From the NCBI GenBank assembly GCA_001695595.3, contig MBPM02000065.1, positions 124,001-188,000 on the forward strand: DNA of 64,000 bases, written 5' to 3'. The notes under the pieces are model-generated. The model searched no databases, had not been told where the DNA came from, and worked only from the letters and a program-made list of their open reading frames with translations. Positions 37,749 to 54,935 of this stretch are shown in pieces. The stretch's first letter is position 1. Every line of letters begins with the position of its first letter. The translations under genes and the position numbers were made by a program. This DNA comes from Plasmopara viticola. Taxonomy: Eukaryota; Oomycota; Peronosporomycetes; Peronosporales; Peronosporaceae.

Positions 37749-38129
37749 TCAGCACTGCGAACATTGAAAAGCGGAAGAATTCTTCATGGGCACACCAAAA
37801 GAGAATTTCACAATGGAGATTCTACCATCTTCAAACGCCATTGCCCTTGACAAAAATGCTTGATTCTTGTACCTGACATAACTCTCCCAGTTTTCCAACG
37901 AGGCTTCGCGAATTCCGGATCCAGGTTCCGCATTATCGCTTTCTACAGAGAACAAAGTAGCTTTGGCTTTCTGTCGATCCAGCTTCTTGATTAATTCATT
38001 AATCCATGCTCCGCGCAAGTAAAACAGCTGACGCAAAATTTCAATCCCCGTCTCTAATTTAGCAACGCTCATGGTCTCGACCCAAAAGGTATGAGAACGC
38101 ATGTCAAAATCTTCTTCTCGTCCGCTCAT
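37749..38129 (-). CDS. hypothetical protein next to the CRN relic
   Basis: A 126-codon frame from the ATG at 38129 to the stop at 37749, beginning MSGREEDFDMRSHTFWVETM. The composition looks coding (LRQLFYLRGAWINELIKKLD, AMAFEDGRISIVKFSFGVPM). No family is recognised. The open frame continues upstream into the tail of retroelement copy F, so the true 5' end may have been separated by that insertion. It could also be the 3' part of a gene whose start was lost. Confidence 0.4.
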   Translation of the reverse strand: MSGREEDFDMRSHTFWVETMSVAKLETGIEILRQLFYLRGAWINELIKKLDRQKAKATLFSVESDNAEPGSGIREASLENWESYVRYKNQAFLSRAMAFEDGRISIVKFSFGVPMKNSSAFQCSQC

Positions 38130-38185
38130 CGTCCGCTCTTTCTCGCACAGAAAGTGCGTCTTACGATAAGCAATAATGTACCATG

Positions 38186-38516
38186 TAATGTAATGCAATG
38201 TAATGTATTACGTTATCGCGTTGCCAAGTTATGCACGTGCTAGGCTCAGTCTGGCTAGTCCACGGCATAGAGTGGTGTCCGCATACGTCGAAACTCGTTC
38301 GGCGGGCAGTGCAGCCAGCACCGAGGTCGTGAGGGCCTTCCATTATTTTGTTTAGCTCTGACTTGGTAAGAGCCCAGGTGGCGCCCTGGTGCTGGAGACC
38401 GTCGCGTCGAGGGTGAGACTCTTTATAGACTTGCAGATGCCCGAGAGCACCAGCCCGAAGCGCGCGAGCATTTAGCCCCCGCGCTTGGAAGGAGGGCATC
38501 ACCCCAACCTTTTCCG
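38186..38516 (-). mobile_element. short LINE-derived retroelement, copy F
   Basis: Same mosaic structure as copies A-D, with the tail at 38186-38210 and the head at about 38500-38516. It sits at the 3' end of the Crinkler relic and extends its reading frame. I found no convincing target-site duplication, which may have decayed. Confidence 0.8.
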
Positions 38517-39868
38517 TAGTAAACGTTATGGTCAGCTGAATTAAATTCAAAGTGGGGTTTGCGAAAACGGGAATAGATCGAGAGACTTGGTTCGCTACAG
38601 CACGCGCCATCTCAATGTCGGGACCCAACACGCTTGCGATATCGTAGTATCGTTCGATAGCAGCGCCAATACCACCGCTATTACCACCTTTCCTGATCGA
38701 TGGCAGCACATTCACCAGCTTGCGTCGTTTCACTGGTTCTGCAAAGCACGGAAGACTAATCTCTGCGTCCGCAGACGCCGATTGTGCAAGAAGAGTCCGG
38801 ATCACTGCAAGCGCCGTGCTTGGATCAGGTATAATCACTGTTCGGATGATGGCATGGTTGTCGTTCTTCTCGGCGACCCAGAAGAACTGCCAATGGCCAG
38901 TCAAGTCAGACAACAGTGCCATCACTGGGTCATCGAAGAGAACATCCAGCGCGATCAGCTCCGACAAGGCCTGAAAGACAGCGCCTCTTTTCACCTTTCT
39001 CTTCACTTTGATCAGCATCTTCACTTCAGGTAACAACTCCAAGTAGGTCGGGAACTGCTTTGCAAGATCGCTCAGTACGAGCGTATCCGTGCGTCCAACG
39101 AGATCAACATCGTGACCAGGGACAGCAGCGCTGAGGAGTTTCTTGCCTTTTCCCAAAACGAGTATGCAAAGCTGCTTTCTCGCAAGCACGTTGCCAATGC
39201 TGTCTTCCACGTACTCCGGTATCTTTCGCGTTGTTACTCCTCAGTGAGCACATCTACTTGGCCACGTTCATCGCGCACATTTTCCCATGTGAATGGTTGG
39301 ACCGGAGTTGGGTCTTCAGTAGCGAATGGAACCGAGCGCGCCGGCACCACACGAATATTCAGGTCTTGCAAAAGAGCGAGCCCCTGGTTTGAGCTCATCT
39401 CCGAATGGACGTATCGCTTGCGCTTGGTCTGCACAACTTATTCGTGCATTTCCTTGACCATTCGCGCCGTCGACGATGTCTCGCCCACAACACCAACCGC
39501 AGCATCTGGCAGTTCCACCAAGATGTGAATTTCTTTGTCTCCAGGCTGGAACTCTTGTTTGAAGTACTCATCGTCGTCGAGCTTCCAGGAAGGTCGCAAT
39601 TCCTCGTATCTAGCGCTCTTGCCAGCTTGTAAGAAGATCTTCACACGGTGGTCGTCCTTCAACCACACGCCGTCCTTCTTCGCCAAGTACAGCGTTAGTG
39701 CGCTTGGCGGAAACGAAAAGCGCTCGCGGTACTGTTGATCGTTGAATATAGCCTTCTGCAGCGTGCTCACTTTCGCATCACGTGCGATTTTAAAGGAAAC
39801 ACAGTTCCTTCGCCATACACCACGCACTCCAGCTCCACTTCGGTCGCGACGACATGGGTATCGGCCAT
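38517..39868 (-). pseudogene. Crinkler (CRN) effector gene, broken
   Basis: The ATG at 39868 begins MADTHVVATEVELECVVYGE. After a one-base loss near 39795 the frame continues into the CRN N-terminal domain with LTLYLAKKDGVWLKDD, the variant of the LFLAK/LxLYLAR host-entry motif. The end of this domain is KEIHILVELP. In-frame TAA codons stand at 39438-39440 and 39234-39236, each where CAA (Gln) would fit. A second frameshift follows near 39220. The CRN C-terminal domain is then readable (VPGHDVDLVGRTDTLVLSDL, DIASVLGPDIEMARAV). CRN proteins of oomycetes act in plant cell nuclei. The damage indicates an inactive copy. Confidence 0.85.
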
Positions 39869-40591
39869 TGTACTTTTCACCAGAAAGTTCGTATTATAAG
39901 TTCATATTATAACCCTTTATAATAACAATCTCTTTTATAAGAGCATACCTACGAACCTGATAGAAGCCCAACCAATATAGAAACCGGTATGTCACTCGTG
40001 GATCACTCTTTCTATCACAGCCTATTAAAGCAACTTTAGATAAGAAACAAACCGAGTGTCCAGAGGTGGCCACCTTCATTCTCGTCATCAGATGCAACGA
40101 TATCAGCAATGGAACACGCGTGTGCTATTAATCTAATCAACATAAGAAAAGTGGCCACGTCCAGCTAAAAAAAAAACTCCATTATAGATTTTACACTTTT
40201 TTATATAGGGATACCCTATTTTATATATAAAATTTCTATGACAATATAAAAAGAAGGTGAACACGGTACATAGATTGATTCAGAACTGATATCGTCGCTT
40301 CTGGTGAAAAGAAAGCTGGACATCAAAGCTGGACACAGCTGGACACAAAGCTGGTCCCAACATTTTACTTCCCATCTAAGAGCAACTACAGATGATCAGC
40401 CCCCCTCTTTTCGGCCATGCTTTTTTACAAATCAAAGCTGGACACTTTTATAGATACCACGAGTGATTCTTTAATCGCTTCTATGGGAGGAACTTCCGGG
40501 TGATACAAAAAAGGGAATCCATCTTGAAGGACAGATATACAGTATATAGTCAGATACAGATACAGATACAGATACGCCAGACATACATATA
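39869..40591. promoter_or_regulatory. left flank of the viral element with short tandem motifs
   Basis: No gene is present. The nonamer agctggaca is repeated at about 40313-40352 and again near 40435. A (cagata)n microsatellite fills about 40551-40575. The sequence tatatagtcag at 40543-40553, about 40 bp before the first viral ATG, recurs just before the capsid-type gene (46446-46456) and may be a viral promoter motif. No terminal inverted repeat could be defined. Confidence 0.45.
40551..40575. repeat. (CAGATA)n microsatellite
   Basis: About four tandem copies of a hexamer precede the first viral open frame. Confidence 0.9.
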
Positions 40592-40900
40592 ATGTGCGTT
40601 GCTATTAAGCCAAACGGGGGGCAGTGCAAGCTTGCTCCAAAGAAAGATCGATGCGCAAAGCATGCAATTAAAAATACAGCCAAAGAAAATAATGATGAGG
40701 TTAGTATAGTAGAAGAAATGCCGCCTCAAGTTTGTACTCAGGCTGTTGTTGATACATCAGCACCATCGGCGATCAAGCCCGTCAAGGCCTCGAGTGTCGA
40801 AGTAAGCAAATTTTCAGAATTGGATGAGTCGATTGTCGAACCAGTGATCGAGGATCAGACTGTATATAAAGAGAGTCAAAGTTCGGATTGCCAGAATTAA
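40592..40900 (+). CDS. viral protein with N-terminal Cys/His zinc motif
   Basis: A 102-codon frame starts MCVAIKPNGGQCKLAPKKDR with Cys2, Cys12, Cys21 and His24. This C-C-C-H pattern (GxQC...C..H) is common at the start of small virus-encoded DNA-binding proteins. The rest is acidic and low in complexity. The frame ends at a TAA, but one base of shift near 40885 would join it to the next coding block. It may therefore be the N-terminal part of the primase-helicase gene rather than a separate protein. TATATAGTCAG lies about 40 bp upstream. Confidence 0.5.
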   Translation: MCVAIKPNGGQCKLAPKKDRCAKHAIKNTAKENNDEVSIVEEMPPQVCTQAVVDTSAPSAIKPVKASSVEVSKFSELDESIVEPVIEDQTVYKESQSSDCQN

Positions 40901-43104
40901 ATAATTCTGATGACGAGGAAGATGGGTTTTTCTTCGAGACTTACGTTCATTCCGGTAAAGAAAGTCAGCATGAGGTCAAAGGTGTGATGAACAAATTCCC
41001 GCTTGGCATTGCAGTTGTTATTAATGCCTTCAATGCCGAACTGAAGGATAACACTATTGGTATCAACCCATCTATTAAGCCGAACCATTTGGTTTACGAG
41101 CATGGTTATCAATATTGCTTTTACATTCAGCAAGACAATAAGACATGGTGTCATTACTCTTGCAAGACTCGACGAATGATGGAGAATATCGAAATTATGT
41201 TAAACGAAGTAGATGTCGTTCAATATTGCTTGGGTACCAAAAAATGCGACCGTCGTCTTTACTCGCTTTGTTCAATTGTCAAAAATTTTTGTTGAGAGAT
41301 ATGACCAATCTATGGCAGTTAGCTGGTCTTTCGGCAACTAAGCCTCTCACGTATCGATGTATTCTGAAGTCGAAAATGTAGAAAATGGACGCGGTTGCCG
41401 CCACAAAAGAATTCTTGGGAATTCACAAGGACGGCAAACCATTCAATGGAGTCGAACGGAAATCAAAAGCTGTTGCTGGTGGAAGTGATCCCGATGCATA
41501 TAATAATTAGAAATTCAAGTATGAGCCAAAAGAAGTCGTGGTGAAGAAAGAAAAGAAAGACGAAGATTTGATGGTTCCTTATTATCCAAAGTTCTATATC
41601 ATATACGAAAACGGGGAGTTGCCCCCCATCTTCGATTGTAAGAACACCGAAACGTATCTCGATGTCATCAGTCTGAAGAAAAACGTAATTACAATGGAGA
41701 CGCTACAAATTTATCAAAAACGACATCGCATACATTTTGCAAGGAGGGAACGGGGAGTACTTGACTAGAAATCGAGATGCTTTCGGAGATATCGATTATA
41801 CAGTTCTCTCTTCGATCAAGCGATTTGATGTGATGTTCGACATTAAGAATGCAATCGAATCAAATGATGCTGGACTTATTTAGACTGATAACACAGAATT
41901 TGATAAAGATAGCATCATAAGTGTGCCAGTGATTCACCATTATCGGGATGATATCACGTTTGGTAAAGTCGAGTTTATGCCATATAACGCAAAAACAGGA
42001 GCCTGTGATACAAACTCAAGTGCATTCGATTAGAAGTCAAACAAAGTGTTTAACAAATTCAATGGATTTGTTCATGCATACGATCCCACCTTGGTTGTTA
42101 ATGGATCGAAGTTCAAGTGCTTCCGAGGGCATTTCTAACATATTTGTTGTGGCGGTCGTGATGATTTAACTAATCACATTATGAATCTCTTCGCATGGTA
42201 TGTTTAGAAGCCATACGATAATTCAGGAGCTTGTAATGCTCTTGAGGGAGAAGAAGGTTACGGTAAGAATATTGCATTTGAGATTTTCAAAAATCATGTA
42301 ATCGGAACCCGCTATTGTCTTGAGACACCAAAGATGAAACTTTTGACTGGTCGCTTCAATGCTGCTCGAGAAAACAAGATTTTGACTGTCTTTAACGAAG
42401 CGGCTAATGTCAAGCAGCCCTCACATGAAGATCAAGATGAGCTCAAAGATTGTATCACTGAGCCGACTTGTATGATTGAGAAAAAAGGTATCGACCCATA
42501 TCGTGTCAAAGATTGTAATAACTTATTTATTGCATCCAACAATTCGTACAGCGTTAAAACGTCAAAAACAGATGCGACGATTTCTGTATTTGCTATATAA
42601 GCGTGATCGTCTTGGCGATCAAGCATACTTCGAGGCGATGCTTGCCGATTAAAACATGGTATTCATTTGTATCACTATCTTATGAGCATTAACTTTGATG
42701 GCTTTCATCCACAAAATGACGCACCACTGAACAAAGAGAAGTCTGATATGCAGAAACCAGCTATTGAGAAACCAGTTCGATGGCTTGTTGAATGTATAAC
42801 CAATGAGACTAAGAGCAGCATTTTTCAAATCTCTCAGATTGAGAATACGCCTGGTAAATTAGAATTCGTATCATTGGATACTATGCTCAAGCAATTCACC
42901 AACTGGATGATTGAAGAATCTAAAGACACATCATCGTATTCACGAGATCGTTTCTTAAAGGCGTTCAGTAAGGTCCTTGGGCCTAACGAAAAGAGACAAG
43001 TTCTGAAGATCCGTCAAAGAGGCTACGACCTATCTGTTGATAGTCTCAAAGAAACGATCATTAAATACACTCGACGAAGTGGTTTGTTCGTCGATGAAAA
43101 GTAA
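40888..43104 (+). pseudogene. viral SF3 (D5-like) primase-helicase, decayed
   Basis: The core is the replicative helicase of a small eukaryotic DNA virus. Walker A is EGEEGYGKN (42244-42270). The Walker B-like block is ILTVFNEAAN (about 42379-42408) and the motif C region is LFIASNNSYSVK (about 42522-42557). KDCITEPTCMIEKKGID lies between and fits the family. The frame from 41689 to about 42590 is continuous except for UAG at 41881, 42031 and 42205 and UAA at 42136. The last UAG falls in WYV-stop-KP, where relatives usually have Gln. Frameshifts occur near 40885, 41210, 41380, 41690, 42590 and 42655. The C-terminal block, SINFDGFHPQND to FVDEK, ends in UAA at 43102. It cannot be translated as it stands under the standard code. 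Confidence 0.78.
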
Positions 43105-43134
43105 TTTAAAAACGACAAAGAATTTTTCTTTCGT

Positions 43135-43330
43135 TCAATCGGATTTTGGTTCAACGGGCTCTGCATTGACTTCTGGTTCTTAGGGCTTATCGCGATTCCA
43201 CTTGTGCTTGTTCTGTTCCCAATAGTTGGCTTTGTAAGCTAATAGCTTCTCACGGTTCTTCCCATAATACTTTTTTGAGCTCGCTTTTGTGCTTCACTGA
43301 CTGGCAGGATATGTGTCTGTATAATATAAA
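43135..43330 (-). pseudogene. small basic viral ORF fragment
   Basis: Readable as VSEAQKRAQK, then after a one-base shift in a poly-A tract KKYYGKNREKLLAYKANYWE and NKHKWNRDKP, an in-frame TAA, EPEVNAEPVEPKSD and TGA. The KNREK-type repeats resemble the linker of viral GIY-YIG proteins, so this could be a paralogous tail of the neighbouring nuclease. Its function is unknown. Confidence 0.4.
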
Positions 43331-43379
43331 GTTTAATGCTCAATAGAAAAAAATAAGAGTCCATCTACTGAGCAGCGGC

Positions 43380-43870
43380 CTATTGAATATGCTTTTTGGA
43401 TATGAAATGACAAGTCTTGCTTCTAAATTGGTAGCGACCGCCGCATTCGCATTTAGTAACTTCGACGAGACTCTCATTGTGTAGCTCGTTGTATTGCTCG
43501 CTTCTTCCATTGAGTGTTACATTATTCGCTTCCCGATAACGCTCTTGACTCATTTTCCGATTGTTTTTTTTAAGGCTCAAAGGGCGAAGTACTATTTATG
43601 CAATTCTTCTTGAATATATTGATCCATAGCGTTTCATAGGCTACCAGCTGCGGTCTATCAACGACTTCATACTGCTTGATCAATGTAATCTAAAACTCGT
43701 ACGGACCGCATTCTTGAAAATATGGATAGATTGCAAACTTGATCATTGTTTTCCCATCATCCCAACATTATAGTGAGACCGATGCTGTTTTATACGTACT
43801 TCTAATAAGTTAAAAGTAGAATCAGTATAGCAAATGTCAAGCTGACTGCAAACGATATATAAATGGGTCC
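43380..43870 (-). pseudogene. viral GIY-YIG nuclease with C-terminal zinc motif, decayed
   Basis: Pieces in several frames match the homing-type GIY-YIG nucleases of giant viruses and Polinton-like viruses. DICYTDSTFNLLEVRIKQHR corresponds to the YxGST...R..H block, with the active-site region already altered. ITLIKQYEVVDRPQLVAYET and LWINIFKKNCINSTSPFEP follow. A linker, then KCECGGRYQFRSKTCHFISK, forms a Cys/His zinc motif, and the gene ends at the UAG at 43380. An in-frame UAG stands just before ITLIKQ. There are frameshifts near 43590 and 43760. Confidence 0.6.
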
Positions 43871-43905
43871 AAGCATGTCTGATATGTATATGTTTTAATC
43901 AGATA

Positions 43906-44420
43906 TCAGAATAAGGCGGATCTACCCAAGTCGAAAGCTCCCACTGGCAGCAACACCTTTCGACGACGAGTCATGGGAGGCGCGATTCCAAATTCCGCTA
44001 ACTGTCGCACGCTCTTTCGAATTTCGTGACTGAAACCACAAATCACCGGATTCTGGGCCAGCGACATTGGCAATCTTGTCGAGTGCGGTTCCAACAATCG
44101 GTTTCCAGTTGTCTTTGTGGAATCCATTAATGCTCTTAGCAGTAGATTTGATTCCATTCCACAGATCTCCTAAAACCCACTGCCACTAAGTCACGATTGA
44201 TGGGTTCGCAAGACCTCGCCATGTCCGCATATGTAAGTTGTTCCTTTGCCCGATTCGTATGCCTTCACAAGCTTCTTGTGGCTTTAAGGGTGTAAATAAT
44301 GCGCGAGGCCTTTGTTCAATTGAGAATGTGTCAAACGAACGGGTTTGCCGTGAAGGACTTTGACAGCCTGCGCATGACTCAGATCGACAGAAAATTCTTT
44401 GTAAATCGAAATTATATATC
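43906..44420 (-). pseudogene. minor-capsid-like viral protein, decayed
   Basis: Read on the minus strand: FSVDLSHAQAVKVLHGKPVR, LTHSQLNKGLAHYLHP, stop (TAA), SHKKLVKAYESGKGTTYICG, two further stops, then ICGFSHEIRKSVRQLAEFGI with APPMTRRRKVLL. The pattern (a short head with HSQL-type helices, an S-G-x-G-F segment and a basic hydrophobic tail) resembles small capsid-associated proteins of virophages and Polinton-like viruses. The stops here include TGA and a probable Trp to TAG, so this gene shows plain decay. Identity is inferred from pattern only. Confidence 0.4.
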
Positions 44421-44452
44421 TGGGATCCTTATATACAGAGCGAGAGACAAAA

Positions 44453-45723
44453 ATGTCAAAGGTTAATAAATCTAAAAGCTCAGTCTGGACTAAATTGAAA
44501 AAAAACTTGTTCGTGACATTAGATTAGGAAGCGAGCATGATAATCTGTCGGACACTACAGTTAAGCTATACACCAGACAATTGATCAAGCTTTACAAGGC
44601 CGGTGTTGTAAAACAGCAATGGTCCTATAATGAGTTCATCTTTAATATCCTTATCTTACTAAGTATGACCACGATTCGTCTCAAAAGACATTAAAAGATC
44701 AGAACTCGAGCATCATCGCGCTTCTGATGAGCATTTATACAAGCAAAGAAAGTCTCATACTAGCACTGAACGCCATGTGCAAGATGGTCAAGAATAGATT
44801 TCGCGATGCATTTGCATATTTCAATACGACTCGAAAGGAACTAAGTAAGCAAAACAGAGCTACAAAGCTGAATAATTAGCTCACTTCAGAAGAAAAAACA
44901 AAGTATATCAGCTAACAAAAGCTAATGTCAGTTCCTGGCAAGGTGAAGAAGATATTCTCCGAGACCTATGGTAAAGTATTTCTATCGAAAGCTGAGTATT
45001 AAGCTTTATCCAAACAGAAAGAGTGATTGCTTAGATATTGTGTTTTATTACATTACACTCGTGGTTGAACTTACATTACCCGCTGCGTTAAGTTAGGCAA
45101 AGCGTGTTGCTCACTCCGCAGGAAGGCTCAAAGTACCTCCAAGGAATCAAGTTGCATTTAAATGACTTTAAAAACTTTCGACTAATACGATCTCGGATAG
45201 TTTAACTGGATAATACGACGATGAGTTTAATAAAGTCATATCTCAATTTCTTGACTGATACCTTCGGTGAGAAACCAGAGAAGTTACTATGGCAAGTCGC
45301 CAGCCGGGTGAGTATGATTATGCAAACTCAAACAATGGATTCAGTCAAGTCATATCCAAGCCCTTCTCGAAATACAATACGGAAAGCCATTATCAATGAA
45401 TATGTTCTGACACATCGCTGAATCTCATATAATCCAATCAACAAGCTACGCTAAGCTCACAAATCGATAGAAGAATGATCTACATGCCAAACTACTTCAC
45501 AGCACCATGGCTGCTAGCACGAGCTACAACAAGATTGCAAATAGAGCAACTGCTGCTGATGTATCTTTTGAACCAGACAACTCATACGACCACGAGCCCG
45601 AGCCTACTGCAAAGACCGCTGCAAAGCCTCTAAGCCGACCTATAGACCGTCGGAAACGTAAATTCCATGGAGATTTTACACCTTCTGGTAGCGACAAGAC
45701 GCTTGAGACTGATATCTACTAAA
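44453..45723 (+). pseudogene. probable viral tyrosine recombinase (integrase), decayed
   Basis: The ATG at 44453 begins MSKVNKSKSSVWTKLKK. After a shift in a poly-A tract the frame gives LSDTTVKLYTRQLIKLYKAG, like the SAM-like N-terminal domain of phage-type integrases. Helical segments follow (LILALNAMCKMVKNRFRDAF), then LSKQKE, stop and LLRYCVLLHYTR. A block NTIRKAIINEYVLTHR could hold the conserved Arg of the catalytic domain, followed by SYNPIN and a tail ending LETDIY and TAA at about 45721. Stops are UAG after KLNN and UAA after YIS and KAEY. The catalytic Tyr could not be placed with confidence, so this is a tentative call. Confidence 0.4.
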
Positions 45724-45736
45724 AAAATTTTTTGCT

Positions 45737-46185
45737 ATGATATACAAAGCGATCATGGAGCAAAATCAAAAGAGAACGTATCGCAAAGCCGGTCCATTCC
45801 ATGTGAGATTCCGTAGACTTCAAGCTTGCTTAAGAAGTGACAAATCCCAAGAAAATATCAAATCAATGCTTGTATCTCATGTATTTGTTGATGTCTGGTG
45901 GTTGATAAGAGAGGACAGGCAGTACAATAAAGCCTTGTTTGATCTTCTCGACGAGCACGAGTGAGACTCCATGCGGTACTGCCTAAAAAAATGTAAGATT
46001 ACTTCAAGACAGTTTGATAGTTCATACAATCAGCTTCTGGATGGTCTCGTAAAACGCTGAAGATGCTTGGGGACCGAAGAGAATCGGCGATGAGTCACTA
46101 ATGATTAATACTGACAAGCTTTACGATAAAAATGTCTTTTCGGCATCGTACTATAGCCAATTCAAGCGTCTGATGAAGCTTTAAA
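45737..46185 (+). pseudogene. unidentified viral ORF
   Basis: Two coding-like blocks. MEQNQKRTYRKAGPFHVRFR to LFDLLDEHE ends in TGA at 45962. After further stops and shifts, AEDAWGPKRIGDESLMINTD to SASYYSQFKRLMKL ends in TAA. No family is recognised. It is convergent with the next minus-strand frame. Confidence 0.35.
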
Positions 46186-46382
46186 TTGCCGTTTAAAACC
46201 CAAAAGAGCTGACGTATTAATGTATTTTGGTTTCTTAAATTTTTTTGCTCCTTTACAAGATGACTAACGCTGATCTGACTCAGTCTGTTAGTCAGAGTCT
46301 CAATATTCGTTGAGCCATTATCATTTTTCGATGAAGCTACGGGTTTCAAGTGATCCACGTCGCCTGATCCATCGATCTCCAT
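46160..46382 (-). pseudogene. small unidentified viral ORF
   Basis: Starts MEIDGSGDVDHLKPVASSKN and continues NRLSQISVSHLVKEQK. A one-base shift in a poly-A tract leads to KFKKPKYINTSALLGFKRQF and a TGA stop. No family is recognised. Confidence 0.35.
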
Positions 46383-46445
46383 TTGTTAAGGCATCATTTG
46401 TCGGCGAATTCTCTTTCGTCGATGCGTATTTATTTAAGTGTGTTA

Positions 46446-46456
46446 TATATAGTCAG
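46446..46456 (+). promoter_or_regulatory. shared motif TATATAGTCAG before the capsid-type gene
   Basis: Identical 11 bp occur at 40543-40553 before the first viral ORF. Here the motif ends 9 bp before the ATG at 46466. I infer a viral promoter or initiator element. Confidence 0.4.
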
Positions 46457-46465
46457 TGAATAAAG

Positions 46466-47190
46466 ATGTCATTTCCGATTTTGTTAAATATCAATAACCA
46501 GGTGGCTACTCACCAGTTCCGATACCGATATTCACAACCAGTTGGTTTTTGCCAGTATAAAATTGCCCTGGCATCAACATCCATTTATTAACATGGCGAG
46601 CAATTACTACTCAACGTCAAAATAATAGCTTTAAAATCATATGGCCAACTGCTTCGACGACAACGGCATACACAACTACGCTCCCTGATGGAACCTATTA
46701 AGCTGCTGATATCAACAACTACCTTCAATACTCGTCAATTTAAAACAATCTTTACTTGACCAACAACACGATGGGAACAAACTACTATTTCATCTCGTGT
46801 GCTGAAAACCCATCGAGCTACGCCTTGCAATCTACAATGCAACCAGTCGAGACTATCACGGGCTACATTGCTGCAAGTGGCTTTCCGGCGATGCCAGCTA
46901 CTGCATACACTCCTCAGCTCCAGGTAGTCGATTCCGCATTCGGTTCTGTCATTGGAATTAGTCCAGCTACGTACCCAGCGGCTCAAACAACGAGCGTTTA
47001 TGCAGTCAATAGTAATTCGGTGCCTCAAATCGATCCAACAGCCGCTGTTGTTATTACTTATTCAAATCTCTACAATCTAATCGCAAACAACAACCAAGTA
47101 TTACACACATATACGTATGCTGGGGTTAGATATGGCAGTCTAATCACAACGTCTCAAGAACAAGGATGCAAAAAACCAATTCAGAACTGA
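46466..47190 (+). pseudogene. capsid-type (penton-like) viral protein, decayed
   Basis: Begins MSFPILLNINNQVATHQFRY, then QPVGFCQYKIALASTSIYY. After a shift come NNSFKIIWPTAS, the LPDGTY...ADINNYLQYSSI block, NNLYLTNNTMGTNYYFISCA and a Ser/Thr/Pro-rich beta-type remainder (ATYPAAQTTSVYAVNSNSVP). This layout matches a family I know from virophage-like and Polinton-like elements in protist genomes, probably a jelly-roll capsid component. Two UAA codons interrupt the frame, in GTY-stop-AAD and SSI-stop-NNL; the second lies where relatives have Gln. Coding character may continue to about 47255 in another frame. The exact role (penton or other) is inferred. Confidence 0.55.
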
Positions 47191-47289
47191 CGCTGTCATT
47201 TTTCGATTAAAATATGATCCCTTGGTATTATTGTTAACAACGTATGCATTCGTTTGTTGATTCGACCAAAAAAATGCAACAGTGAAAAG

Positions 47290-47946
47290 TCATAGACAAT
47301 TAACCTCTTTTTTACAAATCGCCGACCAATTCGATAACGTCTTGTAGATCTTTTCATCAATGATATCCATTAGCATGGTAGTCATCGTTTCAGATGTTGT
47401 TCGTTTATATAGATCGATGAATGTTTTAATTGAGATGTCAGTGGAAAATTCGCGGCCTATGATTCCAAATCTCTATGTGTTGGATTTCGATCGAGTATCA
47501 CATATTGTTTATTCATTCGAATAGTCTTTGAGATGCCAAAGTAGCTCTGTGAAATGTAAATCATACTCCTATCTTGCTTACGCGTTTGGATGAAATACTA
47601 AGAAATCTGTGCTTGAGTATGCTTTGGTTCCATTACCAAGTCATCGAATATGATTAACTTGCTCGTTCCGCTATCATATTCAGTCCTTGCTGAAACCATC
47701 CCTTCTTCAATCAGTTGGACATTATTGATAGTGTTTTAAGACAATCGTAAAGCGTCTCGTTGGTCTTTGTGCAGATGAAGATTTTGGTAAAGCATTTGCT
47801 CAAAAGCGCTATCATATATAGCACGGTGTTTGACTTCCCCGATCCACTTGGACTCGCAACGCACATCCTAAATGGCTGCTCGAAGTGAGGATTTCTTGGG
47901 AACTTTTAACTTTAGACTTCGGCATCGATTCGTAGAGGTTTTGCAT
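47290..47946 (-). pseudogene. viral A32/FtsK-type DNA packaging ATPase, decayed
   Basis: Starts at the ATG at 47946 (MQNLYESMPKSK). After a one-base shift, NPHFEQPFRMCVASPSGSGK gives a clear Walker A (about 47828-47851), followed by NTVLYMIALLSKCFTKIFIC. After another shift, Walker B reads LIIFDDLVMEPKH (about 47657-47620), and then IQTRKQDRSMIYISQSYFGI with the sensor SQSYF. The last block, TFIDLYKRTTSETMTTMLMD, ends in a TGA at 47290-47292. An in-frame UAG stands at 47600-47598 (QIS-stop-YFIQ). The order Walker A, Walker B, Q/SQS-Y-F is diagnostic for genome-packaging ATPases of the virophage/Polinton/NCLDV group. It is divergent from the fibre gene. Confidence 0.78.
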
Positions 47947-47948
47947 TG

Positions 47949-48670
47949 TATAGTATAGTGATTTTAGATTCCCTTCCTCCAATTGTCAATTCTCCTTTAT
48001 GCAATAGCTCTTACTTCAGCGCATCTAATGGATATCTTACTATAACTACAGGTGATCAAAGATGCTTACGGTTTGGTGGTGTTGGAACGTTATCTGCGTT
48101 GAGTGTGATTGGCAATCTTGATTGCGATTCTCTAACCATTGGTAGTTCTGCGTTAGACTTATCATATATTTCAGGCATCACATCCGGAACGTTTCAAGCA
48201 TCAATATCAATGACTATCGATAGCTCTGGCGTTGGCTTGATGCCTTTAGGTACATCGAGCACAAATAATCTGCGGTTTTACAGCGGAGCTTCGAAACGAT
48301 GAACATTTATCGAGTATCGGATACGAATGGATTGGTCATAGCATCAAGAACGACATCAGGAACAAACGGTAAATCGTATCCGTTGTTGAATCAGATATCA
48401 ACTAATAATACAAGTTCTTTTGTAGGTGGCATTCTATCTACAACCGCGGATTTAGTCAACGTCAATTGGGATGATTTACCATCTGTTGGTTTCATATCTC
48501 GGACACATAAGTTCTGCTTTAACGATGGGAACACACAGCCATACAAATCGGGATATCTTCATACATTCGGTTTTGTTTCAACTGCAGATGCGCTAAGTTT
48601 ATCTCCAGCGGCTTCATCATCATTTTACCAAATGGAAATGGTTGTCTTTACCTTTTTTAGACACTTTTGA
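47949..48670 (+). pseudogene. viral fibre-like protein, N-terminal part, decayed
   Basis: Two Ser/Thr/Gly/Asn-rich frames: LCNSSYFSASNGYLTITTGD to SSGVGLMPLGTSSTNNLRFY (to 48302), then after a shift YRVSDTNGLVIASRTTSGTN to 48670. The composition and repeated beta-strand pattern are those of trimeric fibres. I read it as the head of the gene whose S74 end lies at 49057-49491. The start codon is unclear because the frame opens with TTG. Confidence 0.5.
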
Positions 48671-48699
48671 TAAAATGATCTTCAACAACTATACGAAAT

Positions 48700-49085
48700 A
48701 GTGCCAATTGGTATAATTGTGATAGATGAGTTGGATTAAGCTACTTGCAAAGGCGCATTTGGTGATCTAGTTTCGATACCAACTCTGCCAGTCGATGTCT
48801 TCGTGTATTTGCAGTCATCAGAGCCAAATCGTTGGTAGCTGTAGTTTCAAAAAACGCACTGTTAGTGGATGTAGTATTCGTTCCGTTGTTCAGTTGTAAT
48901 CCAAAGCCAATAGGCGAGGCGTTTGACCATTTAATGAAATTGGGTATATCGTAGTCAGCGGTTCAATCGTTGAGTGCATTAGATGCTTTAATATAAATAT
49001 TACCAAAGGTTAGTGTGATAGGCGAAGTTCCAAATGAACTGGAGTATGGTGTATAAGTGTATGATGTAGCGTCTAACTCGTGGGC
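48700..49085 (-). pseudogene. inverted segment of the viral fibre gene
   Basis: On the minus strand this reads TPYSSSFGTSPITLTFGNIY, a TGA, then NFIKWSNASPIGFGLQLNNG, TNDLALMTANTRR and, after a shift, STGRVGIETRSPNAPLQVA. The last block is the typical repeat found just before the chaperone domain in S74 fibres, yet it lies on the strand opposite to that domain. An internal inversion is the simplest explanation; a separate minus-strand fibre gene is the alternative. Confidence 0.5.
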
Positions 49086-49491
49086 AAATCGCATGGGCGG
49101 ACCTTTTACTCTAACAAACGTCTCAGCTTCTTTTGGTAGTAATACTTTCATACAAGCTGGTATATGGGCTACGTCTGATCGTCAATTGAAAGAGAATATA
49201 AAAGAAATCGATTTACCGTTTGATCGTTATAAGTATCTTGAACCGGTCAATTATAACTATAAAAATGAATCTAATGTAAGAGTTGGTTTAATAGATCAAG
49301 ATGTTATGCATGTTTCTTCAGAAGCAATTACGATGATTGAATACCCCAATTTGAAAGATGAGGGTGAACACTCACCCGGCGGAGTTCAACTGTGCTTAGA
49401 TTACAATGCTTTAAAAATATTGAATGTTAATATCAGCAAGAAGCTAATTGATCGTATCAAAAAAGTGGAATCGACTAAAAAAAAATTGTAG
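49057..49491 (+). CDS. S74-type intramolecular chaperone domain of a fibre protein
   Basis: A clean 140-codon frame. YDVASNSWANRMGGPFTLTN leads to the S74 auto-processing domain, which opens ATSDRQLKENIKEID (the SD(R)xxKxN motif, about 49171-49215). VGLIDQDVMH and LCLDYNALKIL follow, with a terminal helix (KKLIDRIKKVESTKKK). In phage and viral fibres this domain helps trimer folding and then cleaves itself off before the Ser of the SDR motif. The Ser-Asp, Lys-Glu-Asn and the trailing helix are all present. The 5' part is displaced by the inverted segment. It ends in TAG, 7 bp from the end of the convergent minus gene. Confidence 0.75.
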   Translation: MYDVASNSWANRMGGPFTLTNVSASFGSNTFIQAGIWATSDRQLKENIKEIDLPFDRYKYLEPVNYNYKNESNVRVGLIDQDVMHVSSEAITMIEYPNLKDEGEHSPGGVQLCLDYNALKILNVNISKKLIDRIKKVESTKKKL

Positions 49492-49498
49492 CACACAC

Positions 49499-50456
49499 TT
49501 AAATAATGATTCCATCGAGCCAGCCTTTCATTTCAGTTTTGTATTGATTTATAACATCGCGTTCCGTTCGATGCTTTCTTGGCGGTTTAGGAGCATTGTC
49601 TTTAGAATAGTCTTTGCCTTTGCGCAGCTCGACAGCTTCGCCAAATCTATTTCGGATATCTCCGTACAAGTTTGCTGCAAATTGACTTTTGTAGCTGTTG
49701 ATATCGTCTGTATATACTTTTTTATTCCATCATTCAACTTGCGCAACCTCTTCTCTTCCTTTATTTCTTCGTCATCGCTGTGTCAAATAGTTGAGGGATC
49801 CGCCTCAGCTCGCTGAGCAGCCTTTTTTGTCGCCCATTTGTCGCTGGGAGATGTATTTGGAGGAGTTGCGGCTCGTTTTCGTTTTGGAATTCTGATTCTT
49901 TCATGACTTCATCAGCAAGCTTGGCAGCCATTGCTTGGCGTCTTCGATTTGAATCCTCTTTTCGAAACTCCTTTTGTTTGTTTAGATAAATTTGCACATG
50001 GTCATCTACCACCCCTTTCAGAGTCTTTTTTCCTTTGATGTATGCTCGAGTATTGACGACTTTGTAGGCAACGTCATCTACTCCATTGTCGAACGAATCT
50101 TCAAGTACAGCGGGCTATTCCATACTAACGTCTGCGTCGGTTGATGTAGGGACGTATGAATGCTTTGTCTTAGTGGATTTTGGAAATTCATTTGTTTCTC
50201 CTTTGACAATTTCAGGAGGACCTTTAGGACCTTCCAATAGCTTTCTTGTGATTTGATCAAACTCATACTCACGAATCTTCCCCATTACTTGCTGAAATAA
50301 ATTCTCAAGGGAATTAGCACTTGCATCATCCAATGACTCGTTTTGAATTAAAGCCTTCAGCTTTTTGCCTTGAACAAAATCGCTCTTTGCCATCGTTTTG
50401 TAATAGCGATCATATGTCTTTTGCTTGGTCTGATTATCAGAGAAAAAGCCACTCAT
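49499..50456 (-). pseudogene. unidentified viral protein, nearly intact
   Basis: Starts MSGFFSDNQTKQKTYDRYYK at the ATG at 50456. One frame runs 232 codons to 49761 with a single UAG at 50117-50115 (SME-stop-PAVLEDSFD). Two one-base shifts (near 49775 and 49665) then link KEEKRLRKLNDGIKKYIQTI and KGKDYSKDNAPKPPRKHRTE to a UAA at 49501-49499. The joined product would be about 317 residues: charged, Gln/Lys-rich, probably helical, with no recognised domain. As the most intact gene of the element it may be the youngest in decay. Confidence 0.5.
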
Positions 50457-53400
50457 GCTTGATTTCGATCAAATCACGTATATTGAAGATGATTGAAATA
50501 ATGGTCAACAAAATTACAATGAATTATCAATCGAGGCTGTCGAGCCGCTCTACCTCGGAACCTTAATCAGTCACAAAGTCTCGAAGCCCGCTACGCTCTG
50601 AAGCAGTGTTCGGAGCACCACAAGTCTAAAAGGAGCTTAGCTTTTTACCTATCAAGCTATTTTCACATAAAGTGTTGGGTGTGTCGACATTGTCTTAAAG
50701 AAAGTCAATGGTATGAGTTAAGCCATGTTTATCCAAGATCGCGGAAAATCCGGTAAATTAATTCAAATTTAGCTCGAAACATCAAACTTACCCTTTGGTA
50801 TATTTAGCTCAGTAAAGCATCTTTCAGATAGGGGTTGGAAGACATCGGCCCTACATGGCTTCACTGATGAGTAAAAAAACGCACTTCAAATAAGAGTAAG
50901 ACACACCAATTTATAAGGTCACACTGGAGATATTTGCGTTCCGTATTGATGTTGTGAATTCTCTCTTATTTTGCCGCAATATACTAAGTTCTAACCGTCC
51001 CTAGTAGTACAAATCATCGATTAATCGAATTGGCAGTCAGGTCTTTATGTCTTGGCCAATAAAAAACCGAAAGAAATGTAGTCATGGGTCTGGGCCAATG
51101 ATGAGCGTCAAGCTTTGTAGTTTATATTTGTAGTACCAGTAGAGCTGAGTTGAGCTTAAAGAAGCAGTTCAAGCACATGGGATTGTATTGATTGTAACTA
51201 AGTCGTTAAGAGACGATTTAACAACACTTTGTTCCAGACACGCTTAACAGACGGACAAATAAGCGCCACGCGATTTTGAAGTATAAGTAAGCGCAGCCTG
51301 TGAGCAGGAAGTGAATACTACGTATCGCTCAATATTTCAGCTCCCTGGACCATTTGATCAAATTCAGCTTGTCATTTGTACTAGCAGTCACTCCATTTAT
51401 TATGATCAAAGCATTGTTCAGCAAATGCTCATCAAAAAATTTTGGCAAATTTTAGTAAAATACTATGTAAAGTTAGATAGATTTTGTTTGCGATAATGAA
51501 CGATGCAGTGTCCTTTTTAAGATTCCGATTAAACGCCTAATCGACTACCAATTATTATTCATCTCATTTGGCGTGAAGTCAGCTAGTTGCTTTTTTAGAA
51601 AAATGAGGTTAGAGATTAGGGTCCTGAGAGGAATTGCCTTTTCTAGACTGATCTCACAACTGCTTGTGCTCTTGGAAACAAACAGTAAGTACGCATTCGT
51701 AAGCTTTCTTCAATTCAGTAAAAAGAGTGTAACTACCATCGATGCATTAACACAGTGGTGAGTGAAAGTCTGTCAACTTGCCGAGAAAACAGTCTTTCTC
51801 ACGAATAACCCATATTGCCATTTGTAAACTTACACGCAGCAGCACTGTAATAGAACCGACATGATTGATACTCGCCATCCACTCAAATATGTTCATACGC
51901 GAAGTGGTGGCTGTTCAAGTAGTTGGACGTGAGCCTTATTCAGTACGCAATATCAAAACCAATTTATTTGCATTACTGAACTTCATGTTAAGTATCACGT
52001 CGTTCCCACTTACTTTGCCAATCCGGACATCGAAAAAATTCTAAGTTTTGGTCCTAGTAATTTAATATGTCATATTATATTATCTTAGATGTCAACACAC
52101 TCTGTTTCTTGCTTTTGTCCATATTACACTTGACTGACTGTTCACAACATATACCTCAACACCAGGCCCTAACATCAAGTAGGTGTTATTATTGACCTTA
52201 CTCTAGCTTGACTCACTTGCTTAAAGTGCAATAATTTTGTTATCTATACATTCTTCAGGATGTACATCTGGCGCCATAATGGTATGAATTGGCAAACACA
52301 TCAGGCTTGCGACTGCATCATTATGGCCTCATGAAGACCAGTCATCTCGCCGATCAGCCTCTTTCTTTTGCCAATCGCTACTTACTTTTCGATGTATGCA
52401 TTGCTGCAGATATCAGGAGTCTGGTCTGGTGTGGCTTACGGGCAGGTAGACTTATATAGACGTTCTCGATCAAACAAGCCCCTATCAAATTTATTTGTAA
52501 TTTAAGCCGGTCTTTCCCACTAAATCGCTGCGGCATATATTTGCGCAGATCAATTTAAAAATGAAGATATGCTTACAAGAGATCTCTTTTAGGTTTCGAG
52601 CAAATTTTCAGCGATAGCAATCAAGATTTATCGGCGACACTTGCTTGCTTGGTAGAGATTGCCCGGTGCGGCTTTTCGCGCATTATCTAATCCTTCGCAC
52701 ATTCTACAGCACAACAACATCCAGAATTTGGTGCAAAGCCGGTCAATTGGCTAGATAGCATTAATCTAGCCTTGTTGCCATTAATCATTTAAGTCAAACG
52801 CGAACAATCTTGGATGTGTTTGCTTTGTTGATTTCATGACGGCGATTCGTTAAATTCTTCCACACGAAGCAAATTACCAAAAAATATTTTTTGAGATACA
52901 GGATTGCAACTAAATTTTGTTTGCAGCTCTTTTTTTACACAAAACAGCTGAGCTTCCGGTACTAGCTGCATACAGGACCAGTAAAAAGTGACCCCCACCT
53001 TCATATATTTTCTTAAGTCTTGTGTGTGATTTTGCATGAAAGAGGCATTTACTTCCACGTTCCAGATTTAGCTTCGATCTTCAATGCGATCATTCTTAAG
53101 GAATATAGCTATTAAGATCGTCGACATGCGAATACAAGACCTTCTCACTTTGCGCCCCAAGAACTTTGCTATCAAATTATTAAACCCGAAGGGCCAGTGC
53201 TCGAGATCAATGACTTCAAGGACGCGAGATGCATTAGCAGAAGCATTAGTTGCTTGATTATAATCTGCGGTTTTCAATCACTGCGAGCCGGCTGTGACCA
53301 TATAAGAAGATACGCTAGAGACCCAAGTGCCTGCAGCGTTGGGGCTCTGGCTTAGACGCACATTAAGCGTGTGATACACACAGCCCTAAAGTCGTGCTGT

Positions 53401-54935
53401 TAATTTTGCAAAAAGTACTGTTTGCAAATTACTGTGCTCTTTTGACGGCTAAAATAGTGGGAGCTAGCTACTGCTGTAGCACCTTCACATCATGTCCCGT
53501 CGAAAATGATAAAAATGTTTTTCAAACGGCACAATATAAATTGCAAGAAGATGTAATTGCTCGCTCTTTGTGACAGCATTAGTGAAGTCGATGGGTGAGT
53601 GTAGCGGTACTTTCGATACGAGTTCGCTCAACTTATCATTACGGCTGGCGGACTGTGAACGTGTTACAGTACATTATCCCAGGAACTCCTATTACAGCGG
53701 CGTTATGAAGAAGACATGTTTTGAGTTCAAGAACTCATGAGTGTTCATGGGCCATTTTGGTAAAATCTTTGACGTCTTAGACGCTTGGGACAACTTTGCT
53801 AGCGCCTTCGGCATGACCATGCCTTCCGCCACTAATATTCAGTGTACCGGAACTATGAGCAGAGCTGATCTCAATGTCCTTACAAATTTTGACCTAAGCG
53901 ACGGCGACGTGTTAAAATCTATTTCTTATAAGACGGCAAAAACATCACATTAGCTAAAAAAGATAGCTTTCAATTATGTCTAACTTTGCATCTTAAATTT
54001 CGACTTAGTGTTTTTTCGTTTCAAACAAATATCTAGCTTTGAAATCTTGAAAAGCGAACCCGTGTCTCTTTTTAGACAAGCAAATTTGTGTCACCAGATA
54101 ACGTCCACTTCCACGACGGAAATGGGAGCTCATGAATGCCTTATTCGTCAAATTCGCACAGATTAGCATGGTGTGTGATAGAAATCTTCCATACTTGCTA
54201 CCAACTTTCTGCGGTAAAAAGCCGGACAGGAAAAAATAACTGGCTCATCTTTTAAAAAAGCAGAACTGTGCAATGATATCTGCCCGAATACTCCTTCAAG
54301 AGAAAATGCATTGTCATATTTGACCAACACTTACAAAAAGTACACTATAATGGATATTTTCAATTCTTTAGAGTCGAAGATCCTTAAGGATATTTTGAAA
54401 TTTTCTCAACGACGTGTCTGTCAATTTTAAAAATAATGGTGACGACAGGGGTACTTCTAACTACTTGGGGTTCACCTATGTTTGCAAATTTAATCTTTTA
54501 TAAAACTCATTACAGATATTGGAACTTCTACTGCTATTTTAGATTACCAGCATGTACGGGTGCATATTGTAAAGTGCTCTTGTGGTCGTTGGAACCAAAA
54601 GAACCAACAAACGCCCAAAAGTCGTTAAGTTGTCACACAATCGCTTCAACAACTACAGGCTTTCGCCCGAGACATACTTTAATAATATGTTCGTCTATAA
54701 ATGGTCTATTGCGGATAAGGTGACGCTAGGACTCCATTGTTTCACGTTTACAAGCTTTTGTCATCATGGAGACCAGTTTTTTTTTAGGTCAACATCGACA
54801 AATGTGTTCCCGCTGCAGCATAAACAAAGGTCCTTGCCTGTCTTGTGAGTAGCTAAGGTTTTGATCAGACCCTAAAAAAAGTGAACTTCGTTTCAGCTTC
54901 ACCTACGACAACAACTTGAGGGAGAGATCAGGCTA
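50457..54935. other. AT-rich stretch without a supported gene
   Basis: Right flank of the viral element. Only short frames are present. The minus frames at 52834-53058 and 53068-53277 and the plus frame at 53741-53953 are mildly protein-like but unrecognised. Parts of 54.1-54.9 kb may belong to the upstream pol region of the neighbouring gypsy element, but no motif confirms it. No inverted repeat matching the left flank was found by eye. Confidence 0.4.

Follow-up and report, generated by a model that had tools for sequence, protein, structure and literature searches.

A decayed endogenous DNA virus, very probably a polinton-like virus of the Gossevirus kind, in the genome of Plasmopara viticola

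The closest described systems are the Gossevirus/GKS1 polinton-like elements of oomycetes (Bellas & Sommaruga 2021, PMC7805220; Bellas et al. 2023, PMC10120064). The available text of PMC7805220, which defines the Gossevirus group, describes 15 oomycete elements, 5 of them with a helicase-primase and a tyrosine recombinase, including elements with inverted repeats and a Gossevirus capsid; it places a Phytophthora infestans capsid in the group and reports a cysteine protease in 90 of 155 members. As far as the published descriptions go, terminal inverted repeats occur in many, not all, Gossevirus elements. According to the available text of PMC10120064, one oomycete genome holds up to 299 capsid copies, and oomycete capsids are confined to five Gossevirus clusters. 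S74 fibres are described as common among polinton-like viruses in the accessible part of PMC12220804. A study of giant-virus insertions states in its available text that no viral sequences were found in downy mildew genomes (PMC8204020). Among the titles listed from the open-licence literature, no paper was devoted to polinton-like elements of Plasmopara, and P. viticola may well sit in the supplements of published data sets. The virus group is already known to be common in oomycete genomes, and the element reported here is a further member. We analyzed a 64,000-nucleotide stretch of the P. viticola genome (assembly GCA_001695595.3, contig MBPM02000065.1, hereafter C65, positions 124,001 to 188,000; "the window", in which all positions below are counted), where a decayed integrated DNA virus spans about 40.1-50.5 kb (a 10.4-kb stretch).

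We are highly confident that this locus is a decayed, right-truncated copy of an endogenous polinton-like virus of about 11 kb, of the oomycete Gossevirus/GKS1 kind. Genes were read with public homologues and the frames of sibling copies in the same genome as queries, the copy on contig C13 serving most often. Stops or frame changes, at least one per gene, interrupt every recognised gene of the window copy, in agreement with the original prediction, made from the letters of the window alone, of an integrated oomycete virus decayed by mutations and frame shifts. A Pfam scan of 20 window pieces gave matches above the curated cut-off in three, to DUF5906 (E 1e-17, 42208-42597), Pox_A32 (E 5.4e-5, 47714-47905) and Peptidase_S74 (E 3.5e-9, 49057-49488). 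The DUF5906 match lies in a primase-helicase gene on the plus strand (40592-43104), broken by frame changes and stops; its main piece matches the C13 frame at 66% with 8 stops, its N-terminal pieces match at 32-67% in several frames, and the C13 helicase itself matches a PHROG "DNA primase" (E 1e-25). The helicase predicted earlier was thus recovered, the "SF3" attached to it being a label that we assume. The minus-strand gene for an A32-type DNA-packaging ATPase (47335-47943) lies in four pieces in three frames with 2 stops, 65-84% to the C13 frame, and the sibling protein matches a PHROG "terminase large subunit" (E 4.3e-11). It is followed by a plus-strand fibre gene (47964-49491), pieces of which match the C13 fibre; the stalk is partly without a match and the C-terminus is the S74 chaperone. 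Both the ATPase and the S74 chaperone had been predicted, and the motifs cited for helicase and ATPase were all found in place: EGEEGYGKN (plus strand, 42244), SGSGKSN (minus, 47848), LIIFDDL (minus, 47657) and SQSYF (minus, 47552).

Three further predicted genes were recognised. A "capsid-type" protein of the original prediction proved to be the penton, or minor capsid protein (46466-47286, plus strand, 4 stops and one frame change), 77-80% to a P. lilii protein (P0178). The GIY-YIG nuclease (43368-43856, minus strand), whose C-terminus holds a Cys/His stretch, lies in more than one frame and is 49-73% to C13 pieces. Its identity comes from the C13 sibling (PF01541, E 7.3e-6, above cut-off), which the window matches at 66% and 73% in two frames; the predicted nuclease was confirmed in this way, although it cannot be read as one open frame in the window. 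The third gene, on the plus strand at 44479-45725, encodes a tyrosine-recombinase-like integrase in five pieces and three frames, 64-79% to a 439-aa P. sojae homologue. We examined the residue pattern in an alignment of 25 integrase homologues against the catalytic pattern R...(H/K/N)xxR...H/W...Y, which we take to be that of tyrosine recombinases. R213 was invariant, and N319, R322, H323, H352 and Y361 were each present in at least 90% of the 25 sequences, H and Y standing nine residues apart. The homologues therefore show the tyrosine-recombinase pattern, and the integrase that had been called probable is kept as tyrosine-recombinase-like on this ground, its profile matches staying below significance (see below).

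The original prediction had noted that no double-jelly-roll major capsid protein could be found and had left the exact group open. In the whole window, tblastn searches with two sibling capsid pieces (E<=1) and with a 552-aa relative (E<=0.01) likewise gave nothing. The window copy lacks this protein because it is truncated at about 50,525, the capsid gene lying beyond that point in the siblings: in C13, C66 and C8, the element runs past the equivalent of 50.5 kb into a capsid gene on the minus strand (window orientation). In the searched genome (92,937,831 bases in 358 contigs), at least 131 pieces matched the capsid among the best 100 of 410 candidates, and none of them was on C65. Past the C13 capsid gene, on the opposite strand, lies a Peptidase_C5 (adenovirus endoprotease) gene (Pfam E 6.9e-5, above cut-off), with GTHW and GHCGSFC stretches and weak matches to adenovirus proteases in PDB (E 0.02-0.09). 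A protease match at E<=1e-3 was found in 19 of 20 capsid loci examined. The cysteine protease of the Gossevirus/GKS1 gene set is present in the siblings and gone from the window copy; the penton and the A32-type packaging ATPase of that set are both present.

The siblings also fixed the extent of the element. Of 46 genomic candidates for a helicase piece, all of them scored, 30 matched; the eight best, namely the window copy and seven others, were compared, the seven others with their flanks. Five of the seven (C13, C60, C42, C66 and C8) are collinear with the window wherever they match; the left end is absent from the C60 stretch compared, the right end from C42 and the part at 48.5-50.5 kb from C8. 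Copies in the same gene order, the search for which had been proposed as a check, are accordingly present in the P. viticola assembly, other oomycete assemblies being covered through their proteins only. DNA identity between the window and its siblings in 500-base steps is 65-92%, C8 being the closest (80-92%); C42 and C66 are 82-93% alike in the same steps. The far end of C8 carries an inverted copy of the left-end sequence, the arms being 82% alike over 477 columns; C8 is therefore bounded by terminal inverted repeats, with a length of about 11.3 kb. The left arm of the window copy (40101-40569, no strand) matches both C8 ends in opposite orientations, at 75% to one arm and at 86%, within 40009-41889, to the other end. 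No inverted partner of this arm was found in the window at 39-54 kb (E<=0.1), and the window keeps one arm. At the right end (50520-50530, no strand), sibling homology stops: five sibling matches to 50450-53450 all lie inside the first 76 bases, and the C13 match ends at 50523, just beyond the capsid stop codon. A genome search in which very common words were skipped gave no other matches to the 2.9 kb after about 50,525. Beyond this end the window copy is without the capsid gene, the cysteine protease, a gene of about 91 aa and the right repeat. The extent given earlier was 40592-50456; better bounds are the repeat arm at 40101-40569 and the right end at about 50,525.

To place the element, we folded the capsid of Plasmopara halstedii (P0001) as a family model from an alignment of 32 sequences (mean predicted local distance difference test score, pLDDT, 66.5). 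The best PDB match was the Sputnik virophage capsid 3j26_A (E 6.7e-11), all 50 PDB rows listed were capsids of double-jelly-roll viruses, and two of the three best matches in a viral library were named virophage capsids. The model indicates that the major capsid protein of the siblings is of the double-jelly-roll type, and the Sputnik match agrees with the available text of PMC10120064, in which Gossevirus capsid models are nearest Sputnik. The model of penton P0178 (pLDDT 84.3) matched the mavirus penton best (6g41, E 6.4e-9); the six best rows were mavirus penton, followed by adenovirus penton base. PDB sequence profiles searched with capsid, penton and integrase gave nothing significant, and the capsid profile PF04451 of nucleocytoplasmic large DNA viruses had no match in the host genome, yet control genomes were equally silent.

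Protein searches gave at least 102 relatives for the capsid (7,995 candidates scored), 76 for the integrase (of 619 candidates) and 82 for the penton (of 197). With the exception of one viral record, the named organisms among them are all oomycetes: Plasmopara halstedii, Phytophthora species, Nothophytophthora, Lagenidium and Thraustotheca. Matches to unrelated transposons, which the original prediction had named as evidence that would count against it, did not appear; the capsid, integrase and penton queries all matched oomycete proteins instead. The capsid is 57-59% identical to the P. infestans capsids PITG_07360, PITG_17752 and GN244_ATG19368. The viral record, "Phytophthora water mold MELD virus" (P0038), has a capsid 61% identical over 85% of the query and, compared by capsid alone, falls inside the same tree of oomycete and metagenome capsids, in another subclade than the P. 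viticola rows. The group left open earlier is therefore probably resolved by the sibling capsid just past the truncation and by its relatives, and membership among the oomycete Gossevirus/GKS1 polinton-like viruses is supported by relatives shared with the published group. The P. viticola copies share an oomycete host with these elements, as the available text describes them (PMC7805220, PMC10120064). Genes for capsid, penton, ATPase and cysteine protease are common to both, as are a helicase-primase, a tyrosine recombinase and terminal inverted repeats. They differ in that C8 measures about 11.3 kb, against 15-30 kb given for insertions generally in the available text of PMC10120064, and in that the window copy is truncated and decayed; the main text of both papers is without Plasmopara.

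We further examined how the copies diverged. The ratio of nonsynonymous to synonymous substitution rates (dN/dS) was counted over codons in separate in-frame matches (rows of at least 80 codons; in two genes C8 enters twice, through two overlapping loci). Of 54 gene-by-copy comparisons, 45 gave values of 0.05-0.43, and dS was saturated in the other 9, 8 of them ATPase. The low dN/dS indicates purifying selection between copies, whose divergence therefore mostly predates decay and built up mainly while the proteins were functional. A capsid tree was built from 81 rows (16 P. viticola stretches, 36 named and 29 unnamed), with support from the Shimodaira-Hasegawa-like approximate likelihood ratio test (SH-aLRT) only; each host row is one in-frame stretch, less than half of the columns being covered in 8 of the 16, and several branches are long. 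The 16 P. viticola rows fail to group as a single clade in this tree (6 changes; approximately unbiased test, p-AU 1.6e-6) and are interleaved with Phytophthora ones, which favours the entry of several virus lineages over a single entry followed by copying.

A second lineage of the same genome is represented by locus L043 (C254:1-9000), where genes for a capsid, S74 fibre, A32 ATPase and 537-aa protein stand together with a penton-like one (recognised by eye), in long open frames. It resembles the window element in its capsid (26% identical, E 1e-22), S74 fibre and A32 ATPase, and in protease matches of about 31-35%. Its capsid gave at least 80 matching pieces among the best 74 of 391 candidates (43-100% identical). 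The two differ in that the L043 capsid pieces are mostly 90-100% alike and mostly without stops, and in that many contigs of the L043 lineage have DNA_pol_B_2 matches, a link known as contig sharing alone. The L043 lineage looks like a younger, more recently amplified polinton-like relative.

One competitor to the Gossevirus/GKS1 assignment is a Maverick/Polinton transposon proper, with a protein-primed DNA polymerase B (PolB) and a retroviral-type integrase. The module of capsid, ATPase and protease is identical in kind, the L043 lineage has its PolB matches, and some oomycete elements with Gossevirus capsids carry PolB and rve according to the available text of PMC7805220. The element instead has a DUF5906 primase-helicase and a tyrosine-recombinase-like integrase; none of 40 DNA_pol_B_2 matches is on C65, and scans of 20 pieces of the window and of 10 frames of C13 matched neither rve nor PolB, so that we regard a Polinton proper as very improbable. 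We give equally little credit to a true virophage of the class Maveriviricetes. The element shares with Sputnik and mavirus the fold class of capsid and penton, the models of which fold best onto these viruses, and cysteine protease, penton, ATPase and capsid form the virophage core set. It differs in its DUF5906 primase-helicase and S74 fibre, and no relation of capsid sequence was detected: no virophage-named protein was among the at least 102 capsid matches, in a search needing shared words, and the published group is described as without BLASTP homology to virophage capsids in the available text of PMC7805220.

The low dN/dS between copies would also be expected of a gene cluster domesticated and retained by the host, for instance in antiviral defence, and endogenous virophages are described as a defence in another protist in the accessible text of PMC10945749. 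Selection on the virus before insertion predicts equally low values, and every recognised gene of the window is broken, with capsid and protease gone; domestication is, in our estimate, slightly less credible still. An assembly chimera has almost no weight: the right end is abrupt and an inversion in the fibre gene (see below) is private to the window copy among those compared, but the arrangement is repeated at other loci, and relatives of the element's genes sit on long Phytophthora contigs.

Several observations weigh against our reading of the locus as a Gossevirus/GKS1 polinton-like virus. Profile searches of Pfam, PHROGs and PDB gave nothing significant for the integrase, the best being Phage_int_SAM_1 (E 0.042, in 1 of 25 members) and Phage_int_SAM_5 (E 0.7), and its name rests on the residue pattern and on labels of 3 of its 76 relatives. 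Confidence in the capsid model is medium (pLDDT 66.5) and its template modelling (TM) scores are low (0.22-0.40); we therefore relied only on the fold class. Single-sequence scans of IMG/VR with the capsid and with the ATPase found no relative. The group placement runs through shared relatives rather than a GKS1 reference tree, and terminal inverted repeats were demonstrated in a single copy, C8. Collinearity is incomplete in two of the seven other copies: C179 is collinear but without about 43.1-47.1 kb, and C107 is collinear over about 39.9-45 kb, after which it has the 47.8-48.6 kb piece alone, reversed.

The gene content and the decay of the element are direct observations; from its relatives we infer the chemistry of integration, virions, and reliance on a foreign polymerase and on a helper. 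In a complete virus, the tyrosine recombinase would insert the viral genome into oomycete DNA and the primase-helicase would start replication. In the complete form read from the siblings, no polymerase gene was seen, so the polymerase would be borrowed from the host or from a co-infecting larger virus. The double-jelly-roll capsid, penton and A32 ATPase would build an icosahedral particle, and the adenovirus-type protease would mature it, probably by cutting a pVI-like protein. A trimeric fibre, attached to the penton, would bind the host, its receptor-binding tip being folded by the S74 chaperone. With its capsid and protease genes gone and the rest full of stops and frame changes, the window copy cannot make particles.

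Comparison among the copies pointed to a mosaic. In the helicase, C60 is nearer to C13 (dS 0.52) than C66 is (1.77); in the C-terminal part of the integrase, C66 is nearer (dS 0.37) than C60 (1.11). C66 is also the nearest to C13 among 10 capsid rows (0.36), a comparison outside which C60 falls. Over 95% of its length, the C13 integrase frame (265 aa) shares 98% identity with a P. sojae protein, to which it seems closer than to any of six other copies in its own genome (dN 0.08-0.15). The fibre is the sharpest mosaic. All four copies tested resemble C13 upstream of a junction at L009:2828 (77-85% DNA identity), but the C13 tip is matched by C179 only (86%), the other three having no match at E<=1e-3. 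A genome-wide fibre search gave 57 matching pieces from the best 40 of 78 candidates; 24 of the 57 end at query bases 902-976, 11 exactly at 973, and one of the 24 (C6) soon resumes with the same tip. At the protein level, the two tip types are still recognisable relatives. In our reading, recombination between copies exchanges the receptor-binding tip together with its S74 chaperone; fast divergence of the fibre tip alone is an alternative that the same alignments would allow.

We thus have a virus fossil without a capsid, and siblings in the same genome that supply the missing half of its gene list. Tentatively, and with rather less than even confidence, we propose that oomycete polinton-like viruses are or were recently infectious, moving between Phytophthora and downy mildews and exchanging fibre tips by recombination as phages do, and that P. 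viticola may keep a young, possibly mobile PolB-associated lineage beside an old decayed one. With many copies at various stages of decay, fibre tips that can be exchanged, an interleaving of P. viticola and Phytophthora copies and a younger-looking lineage in open frames, horizontal infectivity becomes testable by sequencing alone.

The inversion in the fibre gene covers about 370 bp (48687-49060, no strand), where the window has opposite-strand matches against C13, C60, C42, C66 and C179. We considered an invertible fibre switch resembling phage tail-fibre phase variation and rejected it, as an internal opposite-strand piece occurs on the window's contig only among the 57 fibre pieces listed; the inversion is therefore taken as a private rearrangement. 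Rearranged remains are present in more than one copy. A piece from the fibre/ATPase side lies in reverse orientation in C107 (L015 5341-6073), and fragments of a second element lie a few kb beyond the first in C179 (L022 5126-6249).

Four smaller genes lie between or beside those named. A small protein on the minus strand (43924-44403, 3 stops) is 56% to a 155-aa C13 frame and has no Pfam or PHROG match above cut-off; we presume that it resembles adenovirus pVI. Its C13 counterpart (L009:8272-8736) carries LSGSG and MKGGS stretches near the middle and the C-terminus, which resemble adenovirus protease sites if the consensus is as we assume. These motifs are in keeping with the Peptidase_C5 gene adjoining the capsid gene. 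Conserved proteins with no assigned role are one of about 190 aa (45634-46181, plus strand; 63-76% to the C13 frame, in three frames) and one of about 290 aa (49499-50468, minus strand, frame-broken); the latter is 58-76% to a 290-aa C13 frame over 49717-50468, the remainder being assigned by resemblance to the C66 frame. A conserved basic protein of about 105 aa lies at 46165-46424 (minus strand; 63-71% to the C13 frame).

Folding of the DNA of the repeat end was unremarkable (z -1.47). Directly left of the element, at 37749-39893 on the minus strand, is a fragment in several frames of an effector-type gene that we take to be crinkler-like (CRN) from its LYLAK-like motif. A 330-bp piece at its end (38190-38518) lies within 10 kb of three other copies; a link between this gene and the element was considered and dropped, the piece being a genome-wide repeat (2,233 first-look candidates; of the best 40, all scored, 40 matched). 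Outside the repeat, the left flank (39650-40100) is about 71% similar to the flank of the C107 copy (L016), which suggests an older duplication or insertion neighbourhood common to both copies.

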